NCBI GenBank assembly: GCA_028819575.1
Contig: JAPPLB010000049.1
Location: 1-56,006, forward strand
Source: Bryobacterales bacterium
GTDB lineage: Bacteria > Acidobacteriota > Terriglobia > Bryobacterales > UBA6623
Direction: 5' to 3'
Length of the DNA stretch: 56,006 bases
Both the position numbers and the translations under genes were made by a program. Below the pieces are notes generated by a model that saw nothing but the letters and a program-made list of their open reading frames with translations, had not been told where the DNA came from and did not search any database. The number at the start of each line of letters is the position of its first letter. Within the stretch, counting starts at the first letter, position 1. Positions 3,878 through 56,006 of the stretch are shown one piece after another.

Positions 3878-3886
3878 GCGGAACGG

Positions 3887-4936: not shown

Positions 4937-4956
4937 GGACGCAATGCGAAGTCCGG

Positions 4957-6790: not shown

Positions 6791-6796
6791 TGTTAG

Positions 6797-6835: not shown

Positions 6836-6879
6836 TTAGCCGCACTCCTCGGCGGAGCGCTTCATTCTAACGATGCATT

Positions 6880-6968: not shown

Positions 6969-7019
6969 ATCGCCTTGGCTGCGTCAGCGCAAATGAGGGT
7001 TTCGTCTATCATGTAGAGG

Positions 7020-7988: not shown

Positions 7989-7997
7989 GGAGGCGGT

Positions 7998-9071: not shown

Positions 9072-9076
9072 CCGGC

Positions 9077-9140
9077 TTTTCTCGCCATGTGGCGGGGCGA
9101 AGTGCGTGCGGGTCACGAAACAAGAAACACGGCCGTTTGC
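9077..9140 (+). repeat. R2 end fragment plus H7 array
   Basis: TTTTCTCGCCATGTGGCGGGGCGAAGTGCGTGCGGGTCAC matches the first 35 bases of R2. It is followed directly by CACGAAACAAGAAACACGGCC, a 7-bp-period array ending in the common GGCC. It lies in the 100-bp gap before the esterase. Confidence 0.6.
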
Positions 9141-9174
9141 AATGGCCCCGGCCTTCTTGCCATACTCGGCCTGC

Positions 9175-10254
9175 ATGAAACAAGCCTGTGGTGTTCTCAT
9201 CCTGCTATTCGGCGTTGCCGCGGTGGCCGCCGAGCCGCCTTTCTATCACGACAAGTTCAACCTGCTGTACTACATCGATGCCGGCGGTGAGAGGCGCGAA
9301 GTGCGAACTCGGAAAGACTGGCAAAAGCGGCGTCAGCACATCCTCGAGAACATGCAGGTCGTGATGGGGCCTGTGCCCGGCGAGCCCAAACCTCCCCTCG
9401 ACGTCAAAGTGATCCGGGAAGACGACTGGCGCAGCGTGATTCGCCGCAAGATCACGTATCAGGCCAAGAAGGGCGATCGCGTCAATGCCTACCTGTTCAT
9501 TCCGAAGAATCGTAAGGGGCGGATGCCGGCCATGGTTGTGCCGCACCCGACGTCGACCAGGTTCGGCAAGGGGATCGTGGCGGGCGTGGGAGGACGTCCG
9601 CGCCGGGCCTCGGCGCTCGAGCTCGCCGAACGCGGCTACGTCACGATCGCGCCCGATTTCCCCTACATGGGAGAGCCGCAGATGAATCCCTACGATTTGG
9701 GATACGTCAGCAGCACGATGAAGGGCATCTATAACCACATGCGCGCCATTGATCTGCTGCAGTCGATGGACGAGGTCGACCCTGAGCGGATCGGAGCGAT
9801 CGGCCACTCGCTCGGCGGTCACAACTCGCTCTTCCTGGCGGCATTCGACGAGCGCGTGAAGGTGGCGGTGACCAGTTGCGGCTTCAACTCGTTTCCGCAG
9901 TACTATAACGGAGATCTGCGGGGCTGGAGTCAGGACAAGTACATGCCCCGCATCGCCGACCTTTACGACAACGACCCCGACAAGGTGCCGTTCGACTTCA
10001 CCGAAATTCTCGGGGCCATCGCTCCCCGTCCGGTTTTTATCAACGCGCCGATCAACGACGGTAACTTCGAGGTCTACGGCGTGCGGCAGTGCGTCGACGC
10101 GGCGTTGCCTGTCTACACCAGGATCTTCGGGGCGCACGACAGCCTCGTCGCCTACTATCCAACCGCCGGGCACGACTTCCCGGACGAGACGCGCTGGCGC
10201 GCCTACCATTTCCTGGACTGGTGGCTGAAGGGCCGCAAGGCGCCGGCGCCGTAG
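9175..10254 (+). CDS. Secreted alpha/beta-hydrolase (acetyl-xylan-esterase/dienelactone-hydrolase-like)
   Basis: A 359-residue exported hydrolase. Residues 1-19 (MKQACGVLILLFGVAAVAA) are a clean Sec signal peptide, which places the start at 9175 rather than at an upstream in-frame codon inside an H7 repeat. The nucleophile elbow is GHSLGG (210-215, Ser212). Candidate acid Asp295 lies in APINDGNF and the catalytic His333 in TAGHDFPDE. The N-terminal 100 residues resemble the cap of acetyl-esterase-like Abhydrolase_7 enzymes. The likely role is deacetylation or ester cleavage on plant or microbial polysaccharide in the periplasm or outside. No glycoside-hydrolase partner is adjacent. Confidence 0.85.
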   Translation: MKQACGVLILLFGVAAVAAEPPFYHDKFNLLYYIDAGGERREVRTRKDWQKRRQHILENMQVVMGPVPGEPKPPLDVKVIREDDWRSVIRRKITYQAKKGDRVNAYLFIPKNRKGRMPAMVVPHPTSTRFGKGIVAGVGGRPRRASALELAERGYVTIAPDFPYMGEPQMNPYDLGYVSSTMKGIYNHMRAIDLLQSMDEVDPERIGAIGHSLGGHNSLFLAAFDERVKVAVTSCGFNSFPQYYNGDLRGWSQDKYMPRIADLYDNDPDKVPFDFTEILGAIAPRPVFINAPINDGNFEVYGVRQCVDAALPVYTRIFGAHDSLVAYYPTAGHDFPDETRWRAYHFLDWWLKGRKAPAP

Positions 10255-10313
10255 AAAGTGGTCGAATCGTGCAACGAAGGCCGGGGCGGCCAATCAGCCG
10301 CGGCCGCGGTTCC

Positions 10314-10760
10314 TCAGCGGCCCGGCCATCCCTCGCCAATGGCCGATCGAATCGCGCTGCGGACGCGCTCGACGTGGGTCTCTCCGTCGTATCTCCGGCG
10401 CGGCCAGAAGAAGCCTTTCAGCCCGTCGCCTTTACGCCGGGGGACGATGTGCACGTGTAGATGAGGCACGCTCTGGCTTACGCGATTGTTGATCGCTGTG
10501 AAGATACCCTCGGCATGCATCGCTTGAGCGACGGCTCTTCCGAGCATCTGGGCGTTCTTGAACAGGGGGCCGACCAGTTCCGGCGGCAAGTCCATCAGCG
10601 TCTCGTGATGATCTTTGGGGACCAGCAGAGTATGTCCGGGGAAGAGAGGCCGCACGTCGAGAAAGGCGAGCGACACTTCATCCTCGAAGACGACGGCGGC
10701 ATCGAGTTCGCCCCGGATGATGCGGCAGAACGTACAATCCGATTCCTGGCTCGCCATCAT
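10314..10760 (-). CDS. HIT-family nucleotide hydrolase
   Basis: A 148-residue histidine-triad protein. The catalytic HLHVHIVPR has His100, His102 and His104. DVRPLFPGHTLLVPKDHHETL (35-55) is the first conserved block. Cys9 and Cys12 in CTFCRI, together with a downstream His, form the zinc site found in the bacterial Hint/Ap4A-hydrolase branch. Such enzymes cleave adenosine phosphoramidates or diadenosine polyphosphates in the cytoplasm. The C-terminal extension (GFFWPRRRYDGE) is typical of the longer HIT hydrolases. Two adjacent ATG codons (MMAS) mark the start. It has no operon partner. Confidence 0.92.
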   Translation of the reverse strand: MMASQESDCTFCRIIRGELDAAVVFEDEVSLAFLDVRPLFPGHTLLVPKDHHETLMDLPPELVGPLFKNAQMLGRAVAQAMHAEGIFTAINNRVSQSVPHLHVHIVPRRKGDGLKGFFWPRRRYDGETHVERVRSAIRSAIGEGWPGR

Positions 10761-11296
10761 GAAGTCAAGGTCCTTGGACGATTCCCGGCTTGATGGCCCG
10801 TAGTGAAAGTCGCGCGGGCCGAGTCATGCGCCCTGGAGGCCGATGGGCTCCTGCGCGTGGCCGAACAGAGTATCGAAAGCGGCGATGCCGTTGCAATGAG
10901 GAACTCGACACTGCCGTCGCAACGGGAGACGTTCCCCTTGGGTTTTTGGTGCTGGAGCCCTTCAGTCTTTTTCCCGCCCCGGCCGGCATGGCATGAGGAC
11001 AGGGAGGCGAAGTGCCTGCCTGCTGCAGGCAGGCGTGCGAGTCACAAAACACGAGACACGGCTTTAACGGTTCACTGGCGGTCAGACATTTTTCTGGAGC
11101 GAACCAGGCCCCGCCCATGGTTTTCACGAATCACGAGACACGGCCTTCTATATCACATCGCAAGTGCGGTTCCGATGGAATCCGCTGAGGTCCACCGGGC
11201 CCGGGCGTGTGTTCATAAAATATTCAAGGAGGCCGAAGCGAAACGCGTTGTCCGACCCGATGGCTCAGGCATCCGCTTCCCTCGTTCGACCAGCTC
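10761..11296. repeat. 536-bp gene-free block with composite repeats
   Basis: No gene is supported. From about 10,998 it reads GGAGGCGAAGTGCCTGCC, then the perfect inverted repeat GCCTGCCTGCAGCAGGCAGG-like core, then H7 arrays at 11,041-11,062 and 11,124-11,146. Between the arrays lies GTCAGACATTTTTCTGGAGC then GAACCAGGCCCCGCCCATGG, a block almost identical to 20,543-20,585. Both copies join to TTTTCACGA heptads. The first 200 bp show no repeats or clear signals. Confidence 0.65.
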
Positions 11297-12799
11297 ATGA
11301 CGAAGCCGACACGCAGCGCTAGACCATTCATCCGTTCTCTGCTTTGCGCCGGGATTGCCCTCTTCGCCGGCTGTGCTTCGTCGGTACCGGAGAACTACGA
11401 GCACTACCCGATACCGGCGCGTGAACGGCAGCTCTTCCTCGACGATTTGCTGCTTGGGGCCGTGCACAACGTGGAGCGAGTCATTCATCAGCCGGCAAAG
11501 TACGAGGGAAACCCCGTCCTGCGAGCGGATCGCCCATGGGAAGGCGCGTCCATCCAGATACGAAGCGCGCCCGTGTGGGACCGTGAGGATCAGCTCTACA
11601 AGATGTGGTATTTCGGCCCTCACAAGACAGGCCTTGCGACCTCGAGCGATGGACTGCACTGGCGGAAGCCCGTTCTGGGATTGCGCGAGCACGAAGGCTC
11701 GAAACAAAACAACATGGTTGTCGTCGAGGAAGATCCGGAAGCGTTCATCCAGCATGTCATCCTCGATCCGAACGCCCGGCCGGAGCGCCGCTACAAGGGC
11801 CTCACGGGATGGCGAAACCGCCGGCCGCTGGTTTCATCTGACGGGCTCGTGTTTCACTTGCTCGATGTGCCCGCCATCCCCAGCCAGGACGAATCGCATC
11901 TCAACTACGACGAGAAGGAACAACGCTACATCGCGACAGTCAAGCAGCGAGGCCCGTTCGGCAGGTCGGTTTATCTATCCACGAGCAGCGACTTTGAGAG
12001 TTGGACGCCGCCCATGCTGATCTTCCACGCCGATGGGCTGGATCAGGAACTGGGCCGGCAGCGCATCCGCGAGCACTTGGCGAATCCGAAGCTCTATACT
12101 CCCTTGATCAACCAGCCGGACGAATACAACGTCGAGATCTACAACATGCCCGTCTTCCCTTACGAGGGGACCTACATCGGCCTGCCCAACTTCTTCGAAT
12201 CCAGTGGCCGAACGCCGCCGCCTCACAACAATCAGGACGGGGTCAATTCCGTCAAGCTTGCCGCCAGCCGCGATCTCCTTCGTTGGACGAAGGTCGGCAA
12301 CCGCGGCTCGTTCATTCCGGTGTCTGATTTCAACGACCGGAACCTCGATAGTGTCCAGATCCTCGCCGCGTCCCGCCCCCTCGCCGTCGGCGAGGAGCTC
12401 TGGTTCTACTACACCGGGATCAACCGCCGCTACAACCCGGACGGCGGCGGTGAGGGCGGCATCCATCTGGCCAGGCTTCGCCGTGACGGCTTTGTCTCTT
12501 TCCACGCCGCTGACGAAGGCGGTTTTGTCGAAACCCGCGCCATCCGCTTCGAAGGCTCTCGTTTGTTCGTGAACGCCGATGCCTCCGAGGGAGAGGTCCG
12601 CGTCGCCGTCGTCAATGCGAGGGGCCGGGAAGTGCTTGCCGGCTGGGAGCCTGAGAAGTGCGCCCCTATTCGCGGCGATCATCCGCGAACCGAGGTGCAA
12701 TGGCAAGACAGGGAACTCCAATCACTGGCCGGAAAGACCGTCCGCTTCCGATTCCACCTGCGTGGCGCCCACCTCTACTCGTTCTGGCTGGAGCCATGA
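11297..12799 (+). CDS. Exported lipoprotein with GH32/GH43-like propeller
   Basis: A 500-residue protein. Residues 1-26 form a lipoprotein signal (ALFAGCASS, Cys26). The body carries repeated propeller motifs with Asp-Gly-x-x-Trp turns (SSDGLHWRKPV, LAASRDLLRWTKV, STSSDFESWTP), as in the five-bladed propellers of families GH32/43/130. The C-terminal 100 residues form a beta-sandwich ending LRGAHLYSFWLEP. A paralogue of the same architecture lies at 44.9-46.4 kb. Such proteins are frequent in Planctomycetes and Acidobacteria, mostly uncharacterised. Carbohydrate binding or hydrolysis is likely, but I cannot place catalytic acids. The exported oxidoreductase follows after 138 bp. Confidence 0.78.
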   Translation: MTKPTRSARPFIRSLLCAGIALFAGCASSVPENYEHYPIPARERQLFLDDLLLGAVHNVERVIHQPAKYEGNPVLRADRPWEGASIQIRSAPVWDREDQLYKMWYFGPHKTGLATSSDGLHWRKPVLGLREHEGSKQNNMVVVEEDPEAFIQHVILDPNARPERRYKGLTGWRNRRPLVSSDGLVFHLLDVPAIPSQDESHLNYDEKEQRYIATVKQRGPFGRSVYLSTSSDFESWTPPMLIFHADGLDQELGRQRIREHLANPKLYTPLINQPDEYNVEIYNMPVFPYEGTYIGLPNFFESSGRTPPPHNNQDGVNSVKLAASRDLLRWTKVGNRGSFIPVSDFNDRNLDSVQILAASRPLAVGEELWFYYTGINRRYNPDGGGEGGIHLARLRRDGFVSFHAADEGGFVETRAIRFEGSRLFVNADASEGEVRVAVVNARGREVLAGWEPEKCAPIRGDHPRTEVQWQDRELQSLAGKTVRFRFHLRGAHLYSFWLEP

Positions 12800-12937
12800 G
12801 GTTGGTTCGTAGGGAAGTGGAATGTGCGGCGGCGCATGTCCTGTCGGAGCGCGCGGGGTCGTCCTGCGTGACCCGATGGAGGAGATGGAAAGGACGATCA
12901 CATCGGCTTTTCGGACTTCCGTGAACCGGGAGGGAAC

Positions 12938-14149
12938 ATGAACGTATCGAGCCGTAGGGAGTTCATCGGAGCGGCAGCCCTAGGGTCGGCTGGGCTGGCG
13001 GCGGCGGCTGCGATGCCTCCGGGGGCGGTGGCTCCGGCGGATTCGTCGAAAAAGATCCGTATCGGGATTGTGGGAGGCGGGTTCGGAGCTACGTTTCAGT
13101 GGCACCTGCATCCCAACTGCGAGGTCGCCGCGGTCACGGACCTGCGCGCGGACCGCAGGAGGCGCCTTCGCGACACCTACCGCTGCGATACGTTTTTCGA
13201 TTCGCTCGAGCAGATGCTCGAACGGGCGTCCGGCCTCGACGCCGTTGCCGTCTTCACGGGCGCGACGGATCATTATCGGCACGTCGAGATGTGCATGAAC
13301 CGTGGTTTGCATGTCATTTCGGCGGTGCCGGCGTGCTTTTCGCTCGAAGAAGCCGGCAAGCTGAAGGAGTTGAAGGAAAGAACCGGCTTGCGCTACATGA
13401 TGGCCGAGACGAGTTATTACCGTCAGGCGTGCATCTTTGCGCGCAATCTGTATCGCGCCGGCGGCTTCGGTGAAGTCTTCTACAGCGAGGTCGAGTACTA
13501 CCATGATCGCGGCGACCTCCGGAAGCTCGTTACGAACAAGGCCACGCGCTTCTTTCATCCCGACGGCTCGAGAACGTGGCGTTGGGGCCTCGCGCCGCTG
13601 CACTATCCGACGCACTCGCTCGGGTTCGTGGTCGGAGTGACCGGCGAGCGCATCCGATCGGTGTCGGCGCTGGGTTGGGGTAGCTCGCATCCCTGGATTG
13701 ACGAAAACGTGTACGACAACCCGCACTGGAACCAGTCCGCGCTGATGCAGACGGACAAGGGGCACATGGTTCGCTGCAACGTCTTCTGGCTGACGGCCGA
13801 CGAGGGCGAGCGCGCGCAGTGGTTCGGAGACAAGGGATCGCTCTACATGGCGAAGGACGGCCTGCACCCCGACAAACAGCGGCAACGAATGCATGAGGCG
13901 GAGGAACTGAAAGTGCCGTCTTACTGGGATAGCGGCATGCTGCCCGAGCCGATGCGTGTTTCGTCGGGGCACGGCGGCAGCCATGCCTTCCTGACGGCGG
14001 AGTTCATCAACGCCCTGGTCGAGGATCGGGAGCCGGTGATTGACGTCTATGAATCGCTGGCGATGAACGTGCCCGGGATCGTGGGTCACCAATCGGCGCT
14101 CAACGACGGAGAACAGATGAAAGTGCCCGTGTTCGACAAGTCGGCTTAA
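12938..14149 (+). CDS. TAT-exported Gfo/Idh/MocA-family oxidoreductase
   Basis: A 403-residue protein. The twin-arginine leader SRREFIGAAALGSAGL (5-20) precedes a Rossmann domain with GIVGGGFGA (43-51). The usual CEKP-type motif that carries the catalytic lysine reads SAVPACF (128-134), so that lysine is absent. TSYYRQACIFARNLYRAGGFGE and the later PTHSLGF are typical of the C-terminal domain. Cytoplasmic relatives oxidise sugars or inositols with NAD(P); exported forms probably keep a tightly bound cofactor, as in glucose-fructose oxidoreductase. The start is fixed by a strong GGGAGGGAAC site. Its neighbour, a propeller lipoprotein, suggests periplasmic sugar handling. Confidence 0.87.
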   Translation: MNVSSRREFIGAAALGSAGLAAAAAMPPGAVAPADSSKKIRIGIVGGGFGATFQWHLHPNCEVAAVTDLRADRRRRLRDTYRCDTFFDSLEQMLERASGLDAVAVFTGATDHYRHVEMCMNRGLHVISAVPACFSLEEAGKLKELKERTGLRYMMAETSYYRQACIFARNLYRAGGFGEVFYSEVEYYHDRGDLRKLVTNKATRFFHPDGSRTWRWGLAPLHYPTHSLGFVVGVTGERIRSVSALGWGSSHPWIDENVYDNPHWNQSALMQTDKGHMVRCNVFWLTADEGERAQWFGDKGSLYMAKDGLHPDKQRQRMHEAEELKVPSYWDSGMLPEPMRVSSGHGGSHAFLTAEFINALVEDREPVIDVYESLAMNVPGIVGHQSALNDGEQMKVPVFDKSA

Positions 14150-14182
14150 AGGAGTAATTCCCAACTGCGGGGCGGAGGATGT

Positions 14183-14713
14183 ATGGCGGAGACGATGGTT
14201 TCGATGATCCAGGCGCAGCGGATCAGACAGAGAGTTGGGGAGTTGGGACGGGAGATATCGAACGACTACGGGCCCGACGGCATGCGGGCCGTGGTGGTTC
14301 TTGCGGGCGGTTTCATGTTTGCGAGCGACCTGTTGCGTGGCGTGGGTGAAGATGTGCGCTTGAGAGCGCAGGTGGATTTCGTGCGGGCAAGCAGTTATGG
14401 CGCCGGTACGACCTCATCCGGGGATGTTCGGATTGCGATGGATCCGGGTGCGAAGTTCGAGGGGCAGCACGTTCTCTTGATCGACGACGTGTTGGATACG
14501 GGCGAGACGCTATGGAAGTTGTACGGTGTGATGAAGAATGCCGGCGCCAGAACGGTGCGTACGGCGGTGCTTCTGCATAAGGTGGGCAAGCAGCGGCATC
14601 CTGTCATGCCGTCCTACGTCGGATTCGAGATCGAGGATGTGTTTGTCGTGGGCTATGGGATGGACAAGGCAGGACGGTATCGTGGCCTCCCCGACGTGCG
14701 GCGGCTCGTTTGA
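14183..14713 (+). CDS. hpt: Hypoxanthine phosphoribosyltransferase
   Basis: A 176-residue type I phosphoribosyltransferase. It converts hypoxanthine (and perhaps guanine) with PRPP to the nucleotide in the purine salvage pathway. The PRPP-binding loop is HVLLIDDVLDTGETL (96-110, Asp101-Asp102). The flexible loop is SSYGAGTTSSGDVRI (70-84) and the pyrophosphate loop is VLAGGFMFASDL. VGFEIEDVFVVGYGMD near the C-terminus is the base-recognition strand. GGAGGATGT precedes the ATG. It has 33 bp between it and the oxidoreductase gene, but the functions are unrelated. Confidence 0.93.
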   Translation: MAETMVSMIQAQRIRQRVGELGREISNDYGPDGMRAVVVLAGGFMFASDLLRGVGEDVRLRAQVDFVRASSYGAGTTSSGDVRIAMDPGAKFEGQHVLLIDDVLDTGETLWKLYGVMKNAGARTVRTAVLLHKVGKQRHPVMPSYVGFEIEDVFVVGYGMDKAGRYRGLPDVRRLV

Positions 14714-14980
14714 CGCGAAGAACTCGGACTCTCCTCAATCCGGTGCATGGTCTTCCTGTCTCACCATGCGGCGAAGCCCACTTGGCCCACGGCCGGTTGC
14801 GCTCGGTGTTCCTTCTGTGTTGTATTGCAAAGGCCCGGATCGCCCGTCTCATCTTTTATGGACAATGTTCTGAAAACGCAAGGCGGGGCGGGAAACCCGC
14901 AACCCGATCTTCTCTGAGGCATACGGTCTGCTTCGCCGTTTCCGGATCGCGCTCGGCAATCTCGTGCGGAAGGCGCATTG
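14714..14980. other. Intergenic region with weak R2 remnant
   Basis: No gene is seen. About 14,755-14,790 reads CTGTCTCACCATGCGGCGAAGCCCAC, which resembles the R2 start (TTTCTCACCACGCGGCGAGGCGAAG) with losses. The remainder shows no repeat or clear regulatory signal. Confidence 0.35.
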
Positions 14981-15967
14981 ATGCCGCAATTCCACATGAA
15001 CATCCGCTCGGAGGGGGCCGCGGGGTCTTGCCCTCGCTGCGCGGCCGACGCCTACCTGACACTCTTCCAGGCGGAGGACCGTCTTGGGTCGTCGCACGGT
15101 CGCCGTTTTCACATTGTCGAGTGCAGCCGGTGCGCGTTGATCCGGCTCGATCCGATGCCGAGCGCCTCCGAGGCTGCTTCGTTCTACCCGGACAGCTACT
15201 GGTGGAAGCCTGACGGCTCCACTTCGGGACGTCTCGCTGAGATCTATCGCCAACTCGTCCTCATCGACCACGCCCACTTTGTCACCCGCGGCATCGACCG
15301 CACGGGTTTGATCCTGGATGTCGGTTGCGGCGGCGGCTCGCTCGTGCATGCACTGAGGAAACGAGGATTGAAGGCTTTCGGTCTGGAACCGGCTGTCGGT
15401 GCGGCCCGCAGCGCCCACCAGCGCTATGGCCCTCATCTTGTGTGCGGCATGCTTCCCCAGGCCCCCTTCAGACCGGGGACGTTCAGCACGATAACGTTAT
15501 GCCGCGTGCTTGAGCATGTTTCCGACCCTATTAGGCTTCTCAAAGGCCTCGGGCGTCTGTTGAAGCCGGGCGGCAAGCTCTTTGTCCAAATCCCGAACGC
15601 CGCGTGCTGGCAGTTCCTGTTGCTGGGAAAGCGTTGGAGCGGACTGGACGCTCCGAGACACCGGATTCATTTTCGTACGGCCGATCTGGAGGAGATTCTC
15701 GAAGCTACGGGCTTTGAAGTCCTTCGAAGGAAGTTTTTTTCCTTGCGCGACAACCCCGCCGGTCTCGCTTCGAGCCTCTGTCCTGGCCTGGATCCCGCGC
15801 TCCGGCACATGCGCGGGCAGTCGGAAAACGCCGGCATGCGTATGCTGAAGGACTTGGCCTTTTTTGCGCTGGTCGTCGCCGCAACACCATTTACGCTGAT
15901 CGAGGCGGCCGGGGCGGCCGGTTCCACGGTCATGATCGAGACGGTGTGGCGGCGGGGCGCATCCTGA
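14981..15967 (+). CDS. SAM-dependent methyltransferase with N-terminal zinc ribbon
   Basis: A 328-residue protein. Cys17/Cys20 (CPRC) and Cys48/Cys51 (CSRC) form a zinc ribbon, as seen in sugar or lipid-linked C-methyltransferases. The Methyltransf_23 domain has motif I LILDVGCGGGS (110-120), LCRVLEHVSDPIRLLKGL and LLKPGGKLFVQIPN. A hydrophobic segment near residues 280-310 may attach it to the membrane. The ATG at 14,981 is chosen because GGAAGG lies seven bases upstream; an overlapping TTG one codon earlier is possible. Its substrate is unknown; modification of a surface glycan or lipid is plausible. Confidence 0.86.
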   Translation: MPQFHMNIRSEGAAGSCPRCAADAYLTLFQAEDRLGSSHGRRFHIVECSRCALIRLDPMPSASEAASFYPDSYWWKPDGSTSGRLAEIYRQLVLIDHAHFVTRGIDRTGLILDVGCGGGSLVHALRKRGLKAFGLEPAVGAARSAHQRYGPHLVCGMLPQAPFRPGTFSTITLCRVLEHVSDPIRLLKGLGRLLKPGGKLFVQIPNAACWQFLLLGKRWSGLDAPRHRIHFRTADLEEILEATGFEVLRRKFFSLRDNPAGLASSLCPGLDPALRHMRGQSENAGMRMLKDLAFFALVVAATPFTLIEAAGAAGSTVMIETVWRRGAS

Positions 15968-16076
15968 TCGTCGGCAAAGAGTCTTGCCCGCTTATCCCGC
16001 GATTGATACGCAACCCGAGGACTGATGCAGGCGGCGCTCGATAGACTGGACCGGTCGAAGGATTTCACTCTCATGT

Positions 16077-16191
16077 GAAACATCCCTTGTCCAGGCGGGG
16101 TAGACATCTGTTCGGAGGTTTCCCACTTGAGCGATCCGCGCGCGGGCGGCAAAAAACTGTAAATACTAAAACTGACAACTGAAAACTGACC
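16077..16191 (+). repeat. R3 repeat, copy b, with A-rich H7 tail
   Basis: GAAACATCCCTTGTCCAGGC starts the element; GCGATCCGCGCGCGGGCGGC ends its GC-rich part. It then passes into an A-rich 7-bp-period tract (AAAACTG ACAACTG AAAACTG ACC). The order matches copy c at 17.12 kb. It ends 5 bp before the M28 start codon and may replace the normal ribosome-binding region. Confidence 0.65.
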
Positions 16192-16196
16192 TGAAT

Positions 16197-17099
16197 ATGC
16201 GTTGTCGAACAGTAGCCGTCCTGAGCTTGCTCGGGGTTGGAGTGGCGAGTTGCTCTGAACCGCCTCCGGTTCCTTGGTTGCACGAAGGTGAGAGAGCGCT
16301 TGCCTGGACTGCGAAAGTCGTTGCTCTTGGTCCCCGTCCTCCGGGTTCGGAAGCGCACCGCAAGCAGCAGGCTCTGATCGCCGCAGCTCTGCGGGAAACA
16401 AGATGCCTGGTTGAAGAAGTCGCCTTCACGGGACAAACGCCGCTCGGTCCGATCGCAATGAAGAATATCATTGCGAAGTGCAGGGGAAACAGCGACCGCA
16501 TCGTCGTGATTTCGGGGCACTACGACACCTTGCACCAACCGGATATCGAGTTTGTCGGTGCGAATGACGGCGGGTCTTCCACCGGCTTCCTGCTGGCTCT
16601 GGCGGAGATTCTTTCGGAGCGCAGACTGCGCGACAACGTGTGGCTCGCATTCTTCGATGGGGAGGAAGCGATCGTGCGGTGGCAGGGCCGCGATCACACT
16701 TACGGCAGCAGGCGCCAGGCCGCGCAATGGTCCGTCGATGGAACCGCGGAGCGAATCGAGGCGCTCATCAACGTTGACATGATCGGCGATGCCGATCTGC
16801 GGCTCGTGTACGAAGAGCAATCAACCCCATGGCTGCGTGAGCTCATCTGGAGCACTGGCATGCAGCTTGGCTATGAAGACATCTTCGCGGACCGCCGGCC
16901 TGCGTTCATCGACGATGATCACGTTCCGTTCCTGGCCGTGGGCATCCCGGCTGTGAACTTGATCGACTTCAACTACGGTCTCGGGAACCGTTATTGGCAT
17001 ACCGAAGACGACACGATCGACAAGCTCAGCGAGAAGAGCTTCGCCGCTGTACTCCATGTCGTTCTGGAAACCCTGAACAAGCTGTCGCGGAGACCCTGA
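16197..17099 (+). CDS. M28-family metallopeptidase/glutaminyl cyclase-like lipoprotein
   Basis: A 300-residue zinc enzyme. The leader ends GVGVASCSEP with lipid-acceptor Cys19. Metal ligands follow the M28 pattern: His108 and Asp110 in SGHYDT, Asp124 in GANDGGSS, Glu156/157 in FFDGEEA, Asp194 in INVDMIGD, and a late His in DDDHVPFL. The FDGEEA...DHTYGS region resembles bacterial glutaminyl-peptide cyclotransferases of this fold as much as aminopeptidases. It is expected at the periplasmic membrane face. No Shine-Dalgarno sequence is visible because an R3/H7 repeat ends just before the ATG. Confidence 0.85.
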   Translation: MRCRTVAVLSLLGVGVASCSEPPPVPWLHEGERALAWTAKVVALGPRPPGSEAHRKQQALIAAALRETRCLVEEVAFTGQTPLGPIAMKNIIAKCRGNSDRIVVISGHYDTLHQPDIEFVGANDGGSSTGFLLALAEILSERRLRDNVWLAFFDGEEAIVRWQGRDHTYGSRRQAAQWSVDGTAERIEALINVDMIGDADLRLVYEEQSTPWLRELIWSTGMQLGYEDIFADRRPAFIDDDHVPFLAVGIPAVNLIDFNYGLGNRYWHTEDDTIDKLSEKSFAAVLHVVLETLNKLSRRP

Positions 17100-17123
17100 C
17101 GCAGGCCTGTACCTGCCTGAACT

Positions 17124-17231
17124 GAAACATCCTCCTGATCAAGCAGCGTTGACAGCGGTCCGGATGCTGCCCGCTTGGACGATCCGCCCACGAGCGGCGA
17201 AAAACGAAAAACCAAAAACTGAAATCTGAAC
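17124..17231 (+). repeat. R3 repeat, copy c, with A-rich H7 tail
   Basis: GAAACATCCTCCTGATCAAG is followed by CAGCGTTGACAGCGGTCCGG, then GATCCGCCCACGAGCGGC. The tail is CGAAAAA CGAAAAA CCAAAAA CTGAAAT, a clear 7-bp period. It lies 25 bp after the M28 stop and 14 bp from the end of the convergent S9 peptidase gene. Copy d at 53.2 kb shares most of its first 45 bases. Confidence 0.75.
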
Positions 17232-17244
17232 GGTAATCACGATA

Positions 17245-19479
17245 TTACAGATGCTCGTCGAGGTACTTTTCGATCGACCGGAACAGGTGCAAGCGTTCCT
17301 GCTCGCCGTGCAGGGAATGGGTCTTGCCGGGATAGAGCAGCAGGTCATATGACTTGCCGGCTTGAATCAAGGCGTCGATCATCTGGATGGTGTTTTGAAA
17401 ATGCACGTTGTCATCGACAGTGGGATGGACCAGCAGCAGTCGGCCGTGTAAGCGATCCGCTGCTTTCACGGCGGACGTTGCGTCATAGGCATCCCCGTTC
17501 TCGCTCGGCAATCCCATATACCGCTCGGTGTAGATCGAGTCGTAGAGCCTCCAGTCCGTCACGGGCGCCATCGCGATTCCCAGCTTGAAGAGCTTCGAAT
17601 GCGTCAGTGCGAAGCAGGTGCTGAACCCTCCGCCGCTCCAGCCCCAGATTCCGATACGCTCCGGATCGACAAAGTCCATCTTCTGGATCTGCCGTACGGC
17701 GAACTCATAGTCCTTGACCGCTACCGGTCCGTAGCGTTCGCGGGCAGCCGCTTCGTACTTGTGTCCGAGTCGCGAGGACGTCCGGTCGTCGACATAAAAC
17801 ACCGCATACCCCTTTTGCGCCAGGTATTGATGGAAGAGCGGTCTTCCGCGGCTGCCCCACGCGTCGCGGATCGTCGGTACATGCGGGCCGCCGTACACAT
17901 ACATCAAGACCGGGTGCCGGCGTCCCGGTTCCGACGTTCGAGGTCTGAGCAGCATGCCCCGTACCAAGGCATGGTCATCCGTGGTCCACTCGATCAGTTC
18001 GGGTTCGACGAGCCCGTAATCGCTCAGCGAGGGCGCCTCATGGATCGCTAAACTCTGGCCGCCCTCGATACTGCGGACCTCCGATCTTCCCGGCCTCCGG
18101 AGGCTTGAGTGAGAGTCGAGATAGGCGCTATGGGTTGGATTGACTTTGACGACGTGCGTTCCCGTCGTCTTCGTGAGGCGCTCCTTGCCCGTACCGTCTA
18201 TTCGAATCCGATACAGGTCTTTACCCAGCGGTTGATCTTCGTTCGACGTATAGTAAACCCAACCGTTGTCCTCGTCCACGCCTCGGATGGCGCTTACCTC
18301 CCACTCCCCCTTGGTGAGGACGGCTTCGCGTCTTCCATCGAAACCGTACACCTCAATGTGCCGGAACCCGGTCCTCTCGCTGGTCCAAAGAAACCGCCGG
18401 GATGCCCGAAGAAAAGTCAGGTCGTCGGTGACATTGATCCAATAGGGATCTGTTTCTTTGAGGATCCGCCGAGGACGGCCGCGGTGGGCATCCACAAATA
18501 GAAGTTGAAGTTCGTTCTGACGCCGGTTCAATCGCTGAATGGCGAGAGTCGTTGCATCCGCCCAGTCGATTCGCGGCGTATATTCGGCATGCCCTTTGAC
18601 CCAGACGTAGTCGGGCTGCCTGCCGGTCCGCGGCTTTGCCTCGACAATGCCCACGCGGGCGATCGGGTTCGGGTCGCCGGGCTTCGGGTAGTGCTGAAGT
18701 TCGAGCCGCGGCGCGGCCGGCGTGAGGTAAGTGATCGGGAACTCGGGGACATGCTCCTGATTCAGTTCGAGAAAGGCGATCCGAGCGGAATCCGGAGACC
18801 AGTGATACCCCGTACGCACCCCGAATTCCTCGGGGTAGATCCAATCGAGATCACCGTGAAGCAAACTGTCGGATGCCCCGCTCGTAAGCGCTCGCTCGGC
18901 GCCTCCGGCGGCTGGCGCGAGCCAGATGTCGTGCTCGTAGAGAAACGAGATCCAGCGCCCGTTCGGCGAAAACCTGGCATCGCGGACTCCCTGCTTCTCC
19001 GGGGCGATGGGCCGCGCCTTTTGCGTGTCCGGATGATAGAGATAGAGACGGCCGTCATTCGTGAACAGCAGGGACTTCGAGTCGGGAGACCAAAGATACG
19101 AAGCCACCGCGTAGCGCAGCAATCGCTCTTTCTCGCGTTCGTCCTGTGTCGAAGCTGCTCTCTCCGCCAAATTCCGTAGTTGTTCGTAACTGACAACGAT
19201 CTTCTTCTCGCCGCTCTCGGCCGAAGCTGCCCAGAGATTCCGCCGGCCACTCTCTTCCTCGGCCAGGATGTAGCTGAGCCAGTGCCCGTCTGGACTCCAC
19301 TGGAACTGGGTTGGAGTGGGACCTTCCAGTCCGTGCTCCGAGAAAATGTCTTCGAGTCGCAAGGGCTGGGCTGCCAGTCCGTGTGATGGTTGGATGGTCA
19401 CGATTACGATCTTTAGAAATAACAAGAGCGCGGCGACGGAATATCCGCAGCGCCGACAAGCCTGGCCCCGTTTTGGCAT
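17245..19479 (-). CDS. S9-family dipeptidyl peptidase IV-like serine peptidase
   Basis: A 744-residue exported peptidase. The start at 19,479 (MPKRGQ) is chosen over a longer frame because it follows AGGGGAAAC and begins a leader with a hydrophobic core at about 14-35. The N-terminal two thirds form a DPPIV-type beta-propeller (SPDGHWLSYIL, SPDSKSLLFTN, SPNGRWISFLY). The C-terminal alpha/beta hydrolase has Ser615 in GWSGGGFS, Asp690 in PTVDDN and His721 in YPGKTHSLHG. The motif DWIYPEEFGVRTGYHWSPD contains the double Glu region that binds the peptide amino terminus. It should remove dipeptides from peptides in the periplasm, next to another peptidase-like gene. Confidence 0.93.
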   Translation of the reverse strand: MPKRGQACRRCGYSVAALLLFLKIVIVTIQPSHGLAAQPLRLEDIFSEHGLEGPTPTQFQWSPDGHWLSYILAEEESGRRNLWAASAESGEKKIVVSYEQLRNLAERAASTQDEREKERLLRYAVASYLWSPDSKSLLFTNDGRLYLYHPDTQKARPIAPEKQGVRDARFSPNGRWISFLYEHDIWLAPAAGGAERALTSGASDSLLHGDLDWIYPEEFGVRTGYHWSPDSARIAFLELNQEHVPEFPITYLTPAAPRLELQHYPKPGDPNPIARVGIVEAKPRTGRQPDYVWVKGHAEYTPRIDWADATTLAIQRLNRRQNELQLLFVDAHRGRPRRILKETDPYWINVTDDLTFLRASRRFLWTSERTGFRHIEVYGFDGRREAVLTKGEWEVSAIRGVDEDNGWVYYTSNEDQPLGKDLYRIRIDGTGKERLTKTTGTHVVKVNPTHSAYLDSHSSLRRPGRSEVRSIEGGQSLAIHEAPSLSDYGLVEPELIEWTTDDHALVRGMLLRPRTSEPGRRHPVLMYVYGGPHVPTIRDAWGSRGRPLFHQYLAQKGYAVFYVDDRTSSRLGHKYEAAARERYGPVAVKDYEFAVRQIQKMDFVDPERIGIWGWSGGGFSTCFALTHSKLFKLGIAMAPVTDWRLYDSIYTERYMGLPSENGDAYDATSAVKAADRLHGRLLLVHPTVDDNVHFQNTIQMIDALIQAGKSYDLLLYPGKTHSLHGEQERLHLFRSIEKYLDEHL

Positions 19480-19526
19480 ATGTGTTTCCCCTGCCCAAGC
19501 GGCAGCAAGTGACTGAGTCCCCATCG

Positions 19527-20240
19527 TTATACGCTGCCCGCCTGCGGAGCTTGACCCTGACGAGGGTTCATGCCGGTTTTGCCCGCCAGCCCCACCGCCG
19601 TGAACGATTTCGTGAGGCCGAGAAACTTCTCGCAGATGATCGTTGCTCCGGGAAACAGAAGCTCGAACTCACGCCGGTCGATCAGCTTGGTCAGCCCCAG
19701 GAAACCGGACGCTTCCGCCGGTGTCGGCCGCGCAATCCAGCCCCACAGCGTGAAGTTGCGCACGAGCTTCTTCTGCAACCGGCGCGGAAGGAAATGAATC
19801 AGCGGCGTCATCAGGTGCGGTTCGATGGGAAACCGGCGATTGGGGGTCTGTACGCAAAAACGACGGCCAACGCGCCGCACCTCGTCCGCGAAGGCATTGC
19901 GGTCGGAGTCGCCGATGATGTGCTCGATGAGAGAGTTTGAGAAGACGACGTCAAATGCCTCGTTTCGGAAAGGCAGCCGGGTCGCATCCGCCACCACCCA
20001 TCTCGACGAACCTGCGCCCTCGACAGGGGGCTCGAGGTTGATGATGGTCACCGCCGGAGGCTCATCCAGGAAATCCCAATAATAGGCCAATCCTCCCAAG
20101 TCAAGAACTCGTGTTGTCGATTTGACGTCAAACACGGATGTGAACCAACGCAGCCGTTTCGTTCGGAAGTAGCGGGCGACCGGCTTGTGCAAGCGCAAGA
20201 GCTTTGCTCGACCCGTGTGGGGTGTGGCATCTCGGTCCAT
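19527..20240 (-). CDS. Class I methyltransferase (Methyltransf_11-like)
   Basis: A 237-residue cytoplasmic protein. Motif I is atypical, TRVLDLGGLAYYWDFL (about 43-58), with GG-x-A in place of GxGxG. VVADATRLPFRNEAFDVVFS and NSLIEHI are the usual substrate-side motifs. FCVQTPNRRFPIEPHLMTPL is shared with methyltransferases found in polysaccharide-related clusters. The C-terminal PRQGQAPQAGSV is an unstructured tail. It lies 47 bp upstream of the S9 peptidase start on the same strand, but the two functions do not suggest one pathway. Substrate unknown. Confidence 0.82.
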   Translation of the reverse strand: MDRDATPHTGRAKLLRLHKPVARYFRTKRLRWFTSVFDVKSTTRVLDLGGLAYYWDFLDEPPAVTIINLEPPVEGAGSSRWVVADATRLPFRNEAFDVVFSNSLIEHIIGDSDRNAFADEVRRVGRRFCVQTPNRRFPIEPHLMTPLIHFLPRRLQKKLVRNFTLWGWIARPTPAEASGFLGLTKLIDRREFELLFPGATIICEKFLGLTKSFTAVGLAGKTGMNPRQGQAPQAGSV

Positions 20241-20395
20241 GAGTCCGGCGGGCAGACTTTATTGTTTCAGACCGGCCCTCGGATCGGACAGGCAACTGCC
20301 GTTTTGTCAGCGCCGCGCATGTTAGTCTCGTGGATGGAAAGCGCTTCTCGGCACTGGCCCGGCTGCCGGGAAATTCCCATGGCATTGGGCCTGCA

Positions 20396-20633
20396 TTTCT
20401 CGCCGTGTGGCGAGGCGAAGTGTGTGACAGGGCCGTCAGGACGAGGCGCGCCCCGCTGGGCGCGCAGGTCTAGTGGCCATATCGCCTCCTTAAGCCCTCG
20501 GTTCACGAAACTCGAAACACGCCCTTTACGCTTCACCGCCCCTTAGACATTTCTTCTGAAGCGAACCCAGTCCCCGCCCATGGTTTTCACGAGACACGAA
20601 ACACGAATCACCGCCTTTAATGCAGGTTAGGAG
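20396..20633 (+). repeat. Composite repeat: R2 left half, H7 arrays, R2 end
   Basis: TTTCTCGCCGTGTGGCGAGG starts it. GTCAGGACGAGGCGCGCC, GGCCATATCGCCTCC and GGTTCACGAAACTCGAAACA follow. Then comes the 45-bp block shared with 11.1 kb (TTAGACATTTCTTCTGAAGC, CCCCGCCCATGG), a second H7 array (CACGAGACACGAAACACGAA) and AATGCAGGTTAGG, which matches the R2 terminal repeat. This is the most complete copy of the composite form. It ends at the ribosome-binding site of the next gene. Confidence 0.75.
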
Positions 20634-20641
20634 CCTTGCAC

Positions 20642-21541
20642 ATGCCTCGCCCCCAGATCCGCCTCATGGTAGCCCGTCACTCGGCATTCTACAGTCCACT
20701 GATCTCGACGATCGCCGCAGGTTTTCTGCACAAGGAGGGCATTGAATCGAGATACGACGCCCTGCCTCCCGGAGTGCGCTCACACGCCTTGTTGCAAAAC
20801 GGGTCTGTGGACATCATGCAGTCCGCTCCCGGATCGAACTTCGGTCCCATGGAGCGTGGCGAGAGCGGTCTGCCGGTTCATTTCGCGCTGATTAATCGCC
20901 GCGACGGGTTCTTCCTCACAGGCAGGCGGCGGGACAGGGACTTCGACTGGAAAAAGCTGGAGGGATCGACCCTTCTCGCTGATCATGGCCGTCAACCGCT
21001 TCTCATGCTGCGGTACGCCGCCCAGGTGCAAGGGGTCGATTGGGACAAGCTGAACATAGTCGACGCCGGCGATACGGAAGCAATGGATCAAGCGTTTCGA
21101 TCCGGGCAAGGTGACTTCATCCATCAACAGGGGCCGGCTCCGCAGCGACTTGAGCACGACGGCATCGGCCGCGCTGTCGCATCTGTGGGAGCGGCCATGC
21201 CTGAGGTGGCGTTCAGTTCTCTTATGGCGACGCGTGAGTTTCTCAGTCGCCCTCTCGCAAAGACCTTCATGCAGGCGTATCGGCAAGCCCGCCGCTGGGT
21301 TCAAGAGAGCGCCCCGGAAGAGATAGCGGAAAAGGAAGCTTCCTGGTTCGAGGGGGTCGGGCGTGAGAGCCTGGTCCGTGCGATCCGGCGCTATCAGCAA
21401 CTCGGCTGCTGGAGCGGTCAAATCCGAATTCAACGCGATCTCTACGAGCAGGCCCTTGCAGTCTTTCTTCAAGGCGGCGCCGTCAGGCTCCGGCACGCTT
21501 ACGAAGATGTGGTCGTGGACCCACCCGACGGACAGGTGTAA
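20642..21541 (+). CDS. ABC-type substrate-binding protein (NMT1/SsuA-like)
   Basis: A 299-residue periplasmic-binding-protein fold of the NMT1/THI5 or nitrate/sulfonate type. It begins IRLMVARHSAFYSPLISTIAAGFLHKEGI, the typical first strand and helix. GSVDIMQSAPGSNF is the ligand loop, and ADHGRQPLLMLRYA and VAFSSLMATREFL are hinge regions. There is no signal peptide, and no ABC permease or ATPase gene is nearby, so it may be a cytoplasmic ligand binder or enzyme, as for THI5-like proteins. The ATG at 20,642 follows AGGAG at 20,628, which is adjacent to an R2 terminal repeat; an overlapping TTG at 20,636 is less likely. Confidence 0.8.
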   Translation: MPRPQIRLMVARHSAFYSPLISTIAAGFLHKEGIESRYDALPPGVRSHALLQNGSVDIMQSAPGSNFGPMERGESGLPVHFALINRRDGFFLTGRRRDRDFDWKKLEGSTLLADHGRQPLLMLRYAAQVQGVDWDKLNIVDAGDTEAMDQAFRSGQGDFIHQQGPAPQRLEHDGIGRAVASVGAAMPEVAFSSLMATREFLSRPLAKTFMQAYRQARRWVQESAPEEIAEKEASWFEGVGRESLVRAIRRYQQLGCWSGQIRIQRDLYEQALAVFLQGGAVRLRHAYEDVVVDPPDGQV

Positions 21542-30603: not shown

Positions 30604-32880
30604 ATGAAGACCCTCCGATTCCTCCTGCTGCTCGGTGTCGGGGTGATGGTCGCCGCGGTCATCTCTGATTACATCGATACTCGAGAGACAAACCTCAGGA
30701 TCCGCGTCGCCGAACCGGATACGATTCCGTCGAACCTCAACACGCAGTCGGGCCGGTGGAGCTGGTCACAGTCGTCAGGGAGCGAACGGGCGATCGAGAT
30801 CACGGCGGGGGGCCTGCGTCAATCGAACGACAGCCTTGTGTTGGACCTGGAGGACGTAGAGCTCAGGATTCTGCACGGCGACCGCGGCACATACGATCTT
30901 GTGGAGACTCCCGCGGCCCTGTTCGATACCCGTAAGGAGCAACTCTACAGCGAAGGCGATGTGTCGATTACGCTGGCGATCCCTTCTCAATCCCGGCAGG
31001 CCGGCCACGTACCGACGCGCATCCACACGTCCGGAGTGACATTCGAGAGCAAGACGGGCATCTGTGTTACGGAGAGGCGCGCCGAGTACGAGTTCGCCGG
31101 AGGACGGGGACATTCGACGGGAGCGTTCTATGATCCGGCTCGGCGCTTCTTTCGGATGGAATCGGACGTGTTTCTCGAGCGTTTCGGCGAGGACGGGCGT
31201 CCGCCGGCCCGAGTGCGAGCCGGGACGATGATCTTCCGCGAGGATTCTCAGATCGTTGATCTGAACGGCGCCGTCTCCGTTGAGCGAGGCTCTGAGCGGC
31301 TCGAGGCCAAACGAGCCTTCGTGCACCTTGACCAAGGCCGGGCACGATGGGTGGACGCCAGGGAGGTGAAGGGCTCGGACCATCAAGGGAACCGGACGGT
31401 GCAGTACGCCTCCCGGCGGCTCTACGTGGCCCTGACGGAAGACCAGATGCTTGACAAGGTCAGGGCCACGGGAGCCGCCACGCTGCAGTCCCGAAGCGGG
31501 TCTTCGCGGATGCGCGCCTGGGGAGATCGCATCGAACTTTACTACGAAACGCGTCCCGGATCGATGGAAAGCCTGCTGCGAAGGGTAAATTTGCGCAATC
31601 AAGCACAGGTGGAAGAACACCCTGCGGCTTCCCGGGGAATCGGTCTTCGCCGCTTGCAGGCCGACTCGATCGAGCTGCGCATGGCCGACAACGGTGAAGA
31701 CCTGCAAACGCTCTCTGCCCTCACTCGCGGCCGCCTCGATTTGGAGCCGGCCGACGAGACAGGCGTTCGTCGGCAACTGGAAGCGGACCGCATCCAGGGC
31801 ATCTACGGGGAGGGCAACCGCCTCGAGTATCTGAAGGCAAACGGCAAGGTCATGGTGGAGAGCATCCCCGGTGCTGATGAGGGGAACGCCGAACACCCAC
31901 CGTTGAAGACCTGGAGTGAGGCGTTCGAGAGCAGTTTCGATCCTGGAACCGGTGAGGCGCGGCTCCTGAAGCAGTGGAACGGATTCGGCTTCCAGCGGGG
32001 GCGCCGCCAGGGCCGTGCGGGCGCGGCGGTATTTGATCCGGCCGGCAATGAAATCGCGTTGAGCACTGATGCGCATGTTTGGGATCTTTCGGGCGCGATT
32101 CGGGCCGACCGCATCCTGTTCGACGAGAATACGGGTGACTACGAGGCTCGCGGCCGAGCCTCATCGAGCTTCACCGAAGCCTCGACTGAAACGGCGTCCC
32201 GAGAGGAGGCGAACGGTTTCTTCGCTCCTGGCCAACCCGTTTTCTCGAGCGCCGAAGAGATCACCTCCCTGCGGGATTCCGGCGTTCTCATCCTCAGTGG
32301 ACAAGCACGTCTTTGGCAGGAACAGAACCGGCTCGAGGCCGACATGATTCGGATTGACAAACCGGCGAAGATTCTGCGGGCGGAAGGGAATGTAGTCAAC
32401 TACCTGACCGAACCGGCGAACGGCGGCAGGCCGGCTGCGAATGACAGACCCGCCGTGGAACAGGTCCGTATTCGTTCGGCTTCCCTCGACTACGACGAGG
32501 AGGAGAAGCTGATGGTCTACGTCGGTTCGGCGGAGTTGCGGCGCGCCGACCTGACCGTTACTTCGGATCGACTGGAGGGGCATCTGGGCTCCGACGAAGA
32601 AACCGGCTCTCGGAACCGGCTCGAGAAAGCGTTCGCGACGGGAAACGTTCGGATCGTCCGGAGAGGCGCCTCCGATGCCCGCCAAGGCGCCGGTCGGAAT
32701 GCGGAATACTACCCCAGGGAATCAAAGGTGATCCTCATCGGAGCACCGGCTTCTGTTCAGGATGGACGCCGTGGGCGGACCGAAGGGGCGCGATTGACCT
32801 ACTATCTCGACGATGATAGGCTGCTCGTTCAGGGCAGCTCACAGGAGCGCGCCCGCACCTTGAGGCGCAAAGCGCCCTAG
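30604..32880 (+). CDS. LPS-export protein, LptC/LptA (OstA-like) fusion
   Basis: A 758-residue bitopic protein. One N-terminal helix (3-22, LRFLLLLGVGVMVAAVI) precedes an LptC-like domain (about 40-190) and then several OstA/LptA-type beta-jellyroll repeats (ADRIQGIYGEGNRLEYLKANGKV; LEADMIRIDKPAKILRAEGNV; TSDRLEGHLGSDEETGSRNR; EYYPRESKVILIG). The pattern 'variable acid-base turn, Ala-x-Gly-x-Val' recurs. It would bridge the inner membrane to the periplasm and carry lipopolysaccharide from LptB2FG towards the outer membrane. E. coli LptC is 191 and LptA 185 residues, so this protein is a fused and expanded version. lptB follows, separated by an R4 element. Confidence 0.82.
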   Translation: MKTLRFLLLLGVGVMVAAVISDYIDTRETNLRIRVAEPDTIPSNLNTQSGRWSWSQSSGSERAIEITAGGLRQSNDSLVLDLEDVELRILHGDRGTYDLVETPAALFDTRKEQLYSEGDVSITLAIPSQSRQAGHVPTRIHTSGVTFESKTGICVTERRAEYEFAGGRGHSTGAFYDPARRFFRMESDVFLERFGEDGRPPARVRAGTMIFREDSQIVDLNGAVSVERGSERLEAKRAFVHLDQGRARWVDAREVKGSDHQGNRTVQYASRRLYVALTEDQMLDKVRATGAATLQSRSGSSRMRAWGDRIELYYETRPGSMESLLRRVNLRNQAQVEEHPAASRGIGLRRLQADSIELRMADNGEDLQTLSALTRGRLDLEPADETGVRRQLEADRIQGIYGEGNRLEYLKANGKVMVESIPGADEGNAEHPPLKTWSEAFESSFDPGTGEARLLKQWNGFGFQRGRRQGRAGAAVFDPAGNEIALSTDAHVWDLSGAIRADRILFDENTGDYEARGRASSSFTEASTETASREEANGFFAPGQPVFSSAEEITSLRDSGVLILSGQARLWQEQNRLEADMIRIDKPAKILRAEGNVVNYLTEPANGGRPAANDRPAVEQVRIRSASLDYDEEEKLMVYVGSAELRRADLTVTSDRLEGHLGSDEETGSRNRLEKAFATGNVRIVRRGASDARQGAGRNAEYYPRESKVILIGAPASVQDGRRGRTEGARLTYYLDDDRLLVQGSSQERARTLRRKAP

Positions 32881-33144
32881 CAGCCCGTGGCAAAAGTCAC
32901 GCAGGCGGCGTTACGCGCCTCGGGGCCGATAACGTAATGTGTGGCCGCTTCAGGAACGCAGTGACGCAATCTTCGCAGAGTCAGCCGGAAGCGGCGCGTA
33001 ACCCTACGGGCGACAGACGTTTGCAGCCGTCGGCTTTGTCGTTCGTCGGAGGAGATCACCCGGATCGTCATCCTCCTCACTCCGCTCCGAGCGACCGCAG
33101 GAGCCCGCCGCGCCTCCCACGGGACTTTTGCCACGGGCTGCCAG
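32877..33144. mobile_element. R4 element: 268 bp with ~25-bp terminal inverted repeats
   Basis: The left end is CTAGCAGCCCGTGGCAAAAG (then TCACG) and the right end CGGGACTTTTGCCACGGGCT (then GCCAG). These are inverse complements over 25 bases with two mismatches. The interior is non-coding. The left end includes the TAG stop codon of the lptCA gene. Size and ends suggest a non-autonomous MITE; a solo end occurs at 26.48 kb. Target-site duplication is not clear. Confidence 0.72.
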
Positions 33145-33993: not shown

Positions 33994-34200
33994 TAACCTG
34001 CATTTCTCACCACCCGACGGTCGAAGCACACGATACGAGCGCCAGGACTTCGTTGCGCTTGCTTGCCGTGCTCAACGTACGGTTCAAGTACGCCTGCGCG
34101 CGCCAAGCGGCTCGCGCCTTTTTCCTCCGCCCGGCTTGCGCCTCGTCCTGACGGCCCTCTCACGCACTTCGCCTCGCCGCGTGGTGAGAAATGCAGGTTA
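33994..34200 (-). mobile_element. R2 element: 207-bp MITE-like repeat, best copy
   Basis: TAACCTGCATTTCTCACCAC at 33,994-34,013 and its exact inverse complement at 34,181-34,200 form perfect 20-bp terminal inverted repeats. The interior is non-coding and holds secondary palindromes (GTACGGTTCAAGTAC; GCGCGCGCCAAGCGGCTCGC). Interior segments recur at 1.4, 5.9, 20.4, 36.6, 37.6 and 55.9 kb. There is no transposase gene in the window. The strand given follows the orientation of the other well-preserved copies. Confidence 0.85.
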
Positions 34201-54549: not shown

Positions 54550-54863
54550 AAACTCCCCTCCCCGGGAAGGCCGGAACAGACGGCCCTCCAGCGTACCTCT
54601 ACTCTAAGCCTCCCAGCGCAAAGTGTCCACGCCTCCCGTCAATGCAATAGAAAAGCCGTGATTCGTGACTCGTGATTCGCACGCACTTCGAAGGGCCGAC
54701 CGAGAACGGCGGACGGGGCAAGGACACTGGCTTACCCCCACTCCCCCCCCCCCCGCGCAGGCCGCGCGATAGCCGCTCGCAGCCGCGCCATGCCGAGCGA
54801 ACGCGCCCAGCGAAGCAGCGACCGGGCGGCGCGGGGACACTGGCGCAGAACAATATTTTTAGG

Positions 54864-54918
54864 TGAACAATGGCGAACAATGGCGAACAATCGTGAACAA
54901 TGGCGAACAACGATGAAC
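54864..54918 (+). repeat. Decamer tandem repeat, about five units
   Basis: GAACAATGGC GAACAATGGC GAACAATCGT GAACAATGGC GAACAACGAT: a clear 10-bp period with small differences. It follows CAATATTTTTAG. A related decamer array (GGGCAATAGT GGGCAATGCC GGGAAATCGT GGGCAACAGC) lies at 55,319-55,360 after ACATTTTTTTAG. Confidence 0.8.
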
Positions 54919-55003
54919 CGGGAAACAGTGACTTGCCGGCGGGCGCAGTGGTCCGGACGGCGGTTTCCGGTGGCGCCACCCTGGCCACCCACGGAGAAAG
55001 GCC

Positions 55004-55037
55004 GTGATTCGTGTTTCGTGACTCGTGATTCGTGAAA
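55004..55037 (+). repeat. H7 array, clearest copy
   Basis: GTGATTC GTGTTTC GTGACTC GTGATTC GTGAAAA: the 7-bp period is exact over four units, with change confined to two positions. It is preceded by AAAGGCC, as in most other H7 arrays (GGCCTTT on the other strand). The same array occurs again at 55,800-55,835. Confidence 0.85.
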
Positions 55038-55885
55038 ACCTCAAAACCTGTTTTTAGTTTTTTGTTTTTAGTTTTTCGTGAAAACCTTGGATTTCGCGCT
55101 GGCTCGCGCGGCGCGCGAGGAAAGGCCGTGTTTCGTGATTCGTGAAGACCTCGGAATTCGCGCCGGCTTGCGCCGCGCGCCAGGAAAGACCTTGGTTCAT
55201 GATTCGTTTGCTCAACCGTGCAGCCGGGCTGTCGCGGAGCGGCTCGCGGGACACGTCCAGGGCCGCGAGATCCACGGCCGTATTGCGAGGCCACCAGGGC
55301 TTGCGACATTTTTTTAGCGGGCAATAGTGGGCAATGCCGGGAAATCGTGGGCAACAGCAGGCAGGAAAGGTCCTTGAACAAGGCGAGATGATGCCGGAAC
55401 GACATTTCCTTCGCAGGCGCTCCCAGGCCACGGATCAAGCTTATTTCACGAACCATGATCCTCATGCTACGCAGCCCGGGCCGGAAAAAAAAGACTGAAG
55501 GGCTTCAGTACCAACAGGTACCAAAGAGACCATGTTTCGTGTCCCGTGTTTCGTGAAAAACACAAAGCCGTGAGTCGTGTTTCGTGCCTCGTGATTCGCG
55601 AAGAACATAAAGGCCGTGACTCGTGTCTCGTGATTCGTTTTTCGTAAAGACCTTAGAATCAGTGGGTTGCGGTCAGTGAGCGCCTGGGGAGCCCCGATTC
55701 GCGACCCGCACGGACTGCGCCTCCCTGTGCTGTTGCCTAGCAGACCGGGGCAGAAAAAACAAGACTGAAGGGCTTCAGTACTCCATGCACCAAAAAAGCC
55801 GTGATTCGTGTTTCGTGACTCGTGATTCGTGAAAAACCTTAATGGCCGTCTTGCGCGCGCCTTTTTCCTCCGCCCGGCTTGCGCC

Positions 55886-56006
55886 TAGCCTGCCTTTCTC
55901 ACCACCCGACGGTCGAAGCACGCGATACGGCCAGGACTTCGTTGCGCTTGCATGCCGTGCTCAACGTACTGTTCAAGTACGCCTGCGCGCGCCAAGCGGC
56001 TCGCGC
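55886..56006 (-). repeat. R2 element, truncated by window edge
   Basis: GCCTGCCTTTCTCACCACCC then GACGGTCGAAGCACGCGATA and GTTGCGCTTGCATGCCGTGC, continuing to the end of the window. It matches 33,996-34,120 closely and in the same orientation. Confidence 0.8.

Follow-up and report, generated by a model that had tools for sequence, protein, structure and literature searches.

Heptamer arrays in the window

The window (the whole stretch of DNA that was analysed, 56,006 nucleotides) is contig C23 of a Bryobacterales draft genome of 5.37 Mb in 200 contigs (G000). It harbors 11 arrays of at least two CGTG[A/T][T/C]T units, distributed on both strands between positions 6112 and 55830, and an extra array of CACGAAT (2.4 copies) at 5998–6014; the only known RNA family found in the window was a tRNA. 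The array named in the original prediction, recovered by pattern match on the plus strand at 55003–55033, consists of four units (ATT, TTT, ACT, ATT) and reads CGTGATT, CGTGTTT, CGTGACT and CGTGATT followed by the CGT of the next unit. The units are composed of CGTG and then ATT, TTT, TCT or ACT, listed here from most to least abundant in the sampled genome, which agrees with the earlier claim of variation at two unit positions; CGTGTCT, the fourth common unit, had been overlooked. Four-unit arrays favor the order ATT, TTT, TCT/ACT, ATT. The edges of the arrays are also recurrent, AAAGGC on the left and GTGAAAACC on the right, and the GGCCTTT previously noticed beside the arrays is indeed their neighbor, being the reverse complement of the conserved left edge AAAGGCC.

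On the plus strand, the array at 55003–55033 is accompanied by arrays of three units (54657–54680), two units (55127–55143, within a 64-bp tandem duplication at 55075–55207), two units (55538–55554), four units (55569–55599), three units (55615–55638) and four units (55800–55830, followed by the module CCTTAATGGCCGTCTTGCGCGCGCC), and by an adjoining array of another unit type, four copies of GTTTTTA at 55050–55076 with the same GTGAAAACC edge. The minus-strand arrays are more dispersed: two units at 6112–6128, directly inside a shortened terminal repeat (AATGCAGG at 6144), three units at 6939–6962, two units at 11126–11142 with a downstream MITE module, and an array at 20589–20605 that lies within a MITE and has more units in its orthologue. 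Arrays gather at contig ends, the 54.6–55.8 kb cluster being located at one of them, and draft assemblies break at repeats. Additional repeats were observed in the window. A recurrent palindrome, GACTGAAGGGCTTCAGTACC, forms an upstream module of arrays (for example at 55490–55510), 10-bp tandem repeats of the GAACAATGGC and TAGCGGGCAA types adjoin the heptamer cluster (54865–54910 and 55315–55363), and further heptamer arrays, built from ACTGAAA and CGAAAAA, are found at 16159–16190 and 17189–17224.

The arrays are real and not a product of chance. The array pattern gave 294 matches genome-wide compared to 0 for a reversed-pattern control, and scanning of intergenic DNA for periods of 4 to 15 bp in two genomes (about 0.8–1.0 Mb sampled per genome, partly selected for containing arrays) revealed 85 and 91 loci of period 7, at most 11 loci for any other period, or at most 5 in the genome with 85 period-7 loci, and 0 period-7 loci in first-order Markov shuffles. 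Both the strict 7-bp period and the scattering of arrays over the window that had been proposed were recovered. Of 285 sampled arrays, 284 were intergenic according to gene calls made by a simple in-house script, although coding sequence makes up about 80% of the DNA.

Placement relative to genes

A position upstream of genes, and with it a regulatory function, had been proposed for the arrays; the position was not borne out. Arrays lay in co-directional, divergent and convergent gaps in 116, 64 and 43 cases respectively, compared to 113, 72 and 39 expected from gap length, and array position along co-directional gaps was uniform (KS p = 0.15). No enrichment at promoters or gene ends was found in the sampled genome gaps, arrays were not concentrated just upstream of start codons, and they did not lie in or upstream of switchable genes. 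Strand bias was considered as well: arrays tended to be opposite to the flanking genes, a weak effect when gaps were the unit of counting (26 on the same strand, 48 on the opposite one, p = 0.014). Since placement is indifferent to promoters, the regulatory reading is weak, and the positions of the arrays can be explained without such a role.

A MITE family that carries arrays

A search with window positions 3001–21500 led to a dispersed repeat of about 230 bp (20389–20621) that spans the array at 20589 and is present in dozens of copies in a sister genome (G002). The complete element, a MITE of about 237 bp on the minus strand (20390–20626), carries its array next to a shortened left end and has an orthologue in G002. 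Alignment of 40 copies defined terminal inverted repeats of about 20 bp, CCTGCATTTCTCACCAC and GTGGTGAGAAATGCAGG, flanking a short element that occupies a 4-bp YTAR-like insertion slot and contains no gene, transposase or other. Element lengths cluster near 35–40, 160–200 and 260–300 bp; the window holds a minimal 39-bp element in which the two terminal repeats stand almost back to back with TTAG on both sides (6797–6835), a full-length MITE without an array that is absent at the orthologous G002 site (33997–34197, plus strand) and, at 55889–55905 on the plus strand, a terminal inverted repeat with one mismatch whose MITE runs off the contig end. A second family of inverted-repeat elements (CAGCCCGTGG...CCACGGGCTG, window 32880–33143) is also polymorphic between the sister genomes.

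In the module table, 187 of 284 arrays are flanked on one or both sides by a MITE module, and nearly every pairing of an upstream with a downstream module occurs, because the arrays have their edges (AAAGGC...GTGAAAACC) in common. A minority of arrays are strictly inside an intact pair of terminal repeats (37/123 and 41/166), and no terminal repeat was present within 600 bp of 55 of 123 arrays. About one third of the arrays have no recognisable MITE module, including 55003–55033 and most of the 54.6–55.8 kb cluster, for which a MITE link would rest on what is seen elsewhere in the genome. MITE carriage, which the original prediction missed, accounts for much of the scatter of the arrays and for their AAAGGCC neighbor. 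Arrays of other units (TTAGTGG, GTTTTTA) sit in the same frame as the CGTG arrays. In a genome of the same genus (G001), where arrays are few, the MITE copy examined carries none; since this copy and that at 33997–34197 are array-less, the array may be a later addition to the element.

When 194 kb shared in synteny by G000 and G002 (94% identical) were compared, about 12 elements proved to be present in one genome and absent from the other, at least five of them with arrays. The array-bearing elements missing from the sister genome, with intact flanks, are located at C121:10638, C121:11628, C153:7760 and C110:13256 in G000 and at C30:14707 in G002; to judge from these alignments, array-bearing elements arrive at sites that are otherwise intact. 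An exact 4-bp slot was recovered at the empty site for 10 of 17 automatically listed insertions, yet the check for target-site duplication found the two flanking 4-mers unequal in most fresh insertions, and in four of the 10 slot insertions the empty-site sequence is matched by a single one of the two 4-mers. Overall, the outer and inner flank bases show an excess of agreement over expectation (permutation p = 0.004 and 0.04), and complementarity tends to be seen between the innermost bases of the two MITE ends. The piggyBac transposon retains at its end a 4-nt overhang that comes from the donor flank (PMC7351741), a behavior that would give unequal 4-bp flanks such as these. The few sites available suggest either a carry-over of the donor overhang or palindrome correction.

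Two IS1380 elements with MITE-like ends were found in G000, one of them with an intact transposase ORF of 487 aa (NCBIfam NF033539, E = 3e-115; PF13701, E = 8e-147). The ends of the intact element (C121) match those of the MITE at 16 of 17 positions on the left and 13 of 17 on the right, so that a full-length IS1380 with the same ends resides in the same genome; this element is inserted into a MITE module and has CTAG on both sides. The IS1380 transposase is likely to move the MITEs. Other vehicles were considered and rejected. No Y1 transposase (PF01797), expected for a RAYT/REP origin, was detected in the array-rich G000 or G002, and nine were found in G001, which has few arrays. The IS630-type loci (PF13358) are mostly fragments and none of those examined has matching ends around the gene. 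No plasmid match was obtained for the array plus first module, and two IMG/VR viral contigs contain arrays but no modules around them.

Origin and upkeep of the arrays

The reading that we favor, with a probability of roughly 0.7, is that the arrays are a fast-changing internal module of IS1380-type MITEs, together with copies left in mosaics of repeat modules. MITEs with CCTGCATTTCTCACCAC...GTGGTGAGAAATGCAGG ends enter intergenic 4-bp YTAR-like slots and bring the array along, as the sister genomes show; the IS1380 transposase of the same genome would move them, a step supported by an element whose ends match and which is bordered by a CTAG duplication; and the placed arrays would gain, lose or exchange 7-bp units via replication slippage or short-repeat recombination, a step that also has support. 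Concerning the last of these, whole-unit differences between G000 and G002 were seen in about six of the eight orthologous arrays that aligned cleanly, as the suggestion of a variable unit number implied. Hypervariability holds between species, the level at which unit number was seen to vary. Few arrays reach five units or more, whether MITE-linked or not, a scarcity that differs from the prediction of simple slippage. Furthermore, the unit sequence can switch wholesale in the same element while frame and length are kept.

The last two observations, and a period and CGTG core that are conserved while two positions vary, would also fit a regulator, or a nucleoid protein, that covers 7 bp of DNA (e.g., ribbon-helix-helix, tandem heptads), a candidate binder of four to five CGTG cores whose sites the MITE only spreads. 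We regard this as improbable: arrays are not enriched at promoters or at either end of the gaps, and a complete change of unit (CGTG, TAGTG and TTTTTA types) would be intolerable to a sequence-specific binder. Local birth of the arrays through replication slippage that favors steps of 7 nt, the MITE link being incidental to both being intergenic, has as little in its favor overall. Heptamers are reported to be over-represented in bacteria and have tentatively been tied to polymerase geometry (PMC4692102), and CGTG-type arrays recur patchily among 396 Acidobacteriota genomes, in others of which the reversed control pattern matches strongly; one such genome sampled (G367) contains long GTGCTNN-type heptamer arrays, and many different 7-bp arrays occur in sampled stretches of other, unrelated Acidobacteriota (G143, G347 and G192). 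The 7-bp period is thus more general than the IS1380-type MITE, and MITE carriage need not explain it. However, identical edges, the consistent order ATT-TTT-TCT/ACT-ATT and common flanks need copying rather than independent birth, and polymorphic insertions carry arrays; slippage is disfavored as the sole cause of the arrays here and likely holds for their upkeep. The stretches of G143 and G347 (L200–L204) also contain about 10 period-6 loci each.

Far less probable than either is that the arrays are contingency loci in which changes of unit number switch neighboring genes on or off: unit number does differ between species, but the arrays number hundreds of sites placed at random relative to genes with no position preference, and they are nearly absent from coding sequence. 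They seem to be mobile, fast-changing DNA rather than gene switches. There is a small chance that the arrays are rewritten and not merely slipped, with units (CGTGATT, TAGTGGT, TTTTTAG) changing wholesale in one transposon frame but the step of 7 bp and the number of units, about four, kept constant; if so, a dedicated or structurally constrained 7-nt process would operate across Acidobacteriota.

Relation to known repeats and elements

The STRR heptamers of heterocystous cyanobacteria are tandem 7-bp units scattered over the genome. The resemblance originally drawn to them is sound insofar as the CGTG arrays are also tandem, 7-bp and scattered, with another unit sequence; a specific binding protein would be a further trait of STRR heptamers. 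Calothrix heptamers are mentioned together with the GGGNATC and GGGGA(C/T)T heptamers of Xanthomonas and Nostoc, which are dispersed, over-represented in non-coding DNA and show a four-unit preference (PMC4692102). The CGTG arrays share with the GGGNATC repeats the 7-bp unit, the dispersed non-coding location, the four-unit preference and a unit number that varies between relatives, but they are MITE-carried, show no placement bias toward gene ends and have no G-tracts. Since the common CGTG units contain no GG, the four G-tracts of a G-quadruplex are absent and none is expected, which makes the arrays a test case for a four-unit preference without G-quadruplex-forming sequence.

IS1380 has been described as an outgroup, with TTAA-like duplications (PMC10813416). 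As in MITEs driven by IS1380 or piggyBac-like elements, the present family has terminal inverted repeats starting with CC, a 4-bp TA-centred slot, a short length, no ORF and a full-length relative in the same genome; unlike them, it has a variable heptamer array aboard and its fresh insertions often have two different 4-bp flanks. This ties bacterial heptamer repeats to a mobile carrier, an IS1380-type MITE, and the unequal flanks suggest that an IS1380-type element of a bacterium may, like eukaryotic piggyBac, take along an overhang from the donor, a directly testable idea. Finally, the TAACTGA repeats of marine Beggiatoaceae are located just upstream of start codons (PMC4679880), unlike the CGTG arrays, which are likewise intergenic and made of 7-bp units in short runs of two to six. 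The ACTGAAA array of the window (16159–16190) also resembles these TAACTGA repeats.
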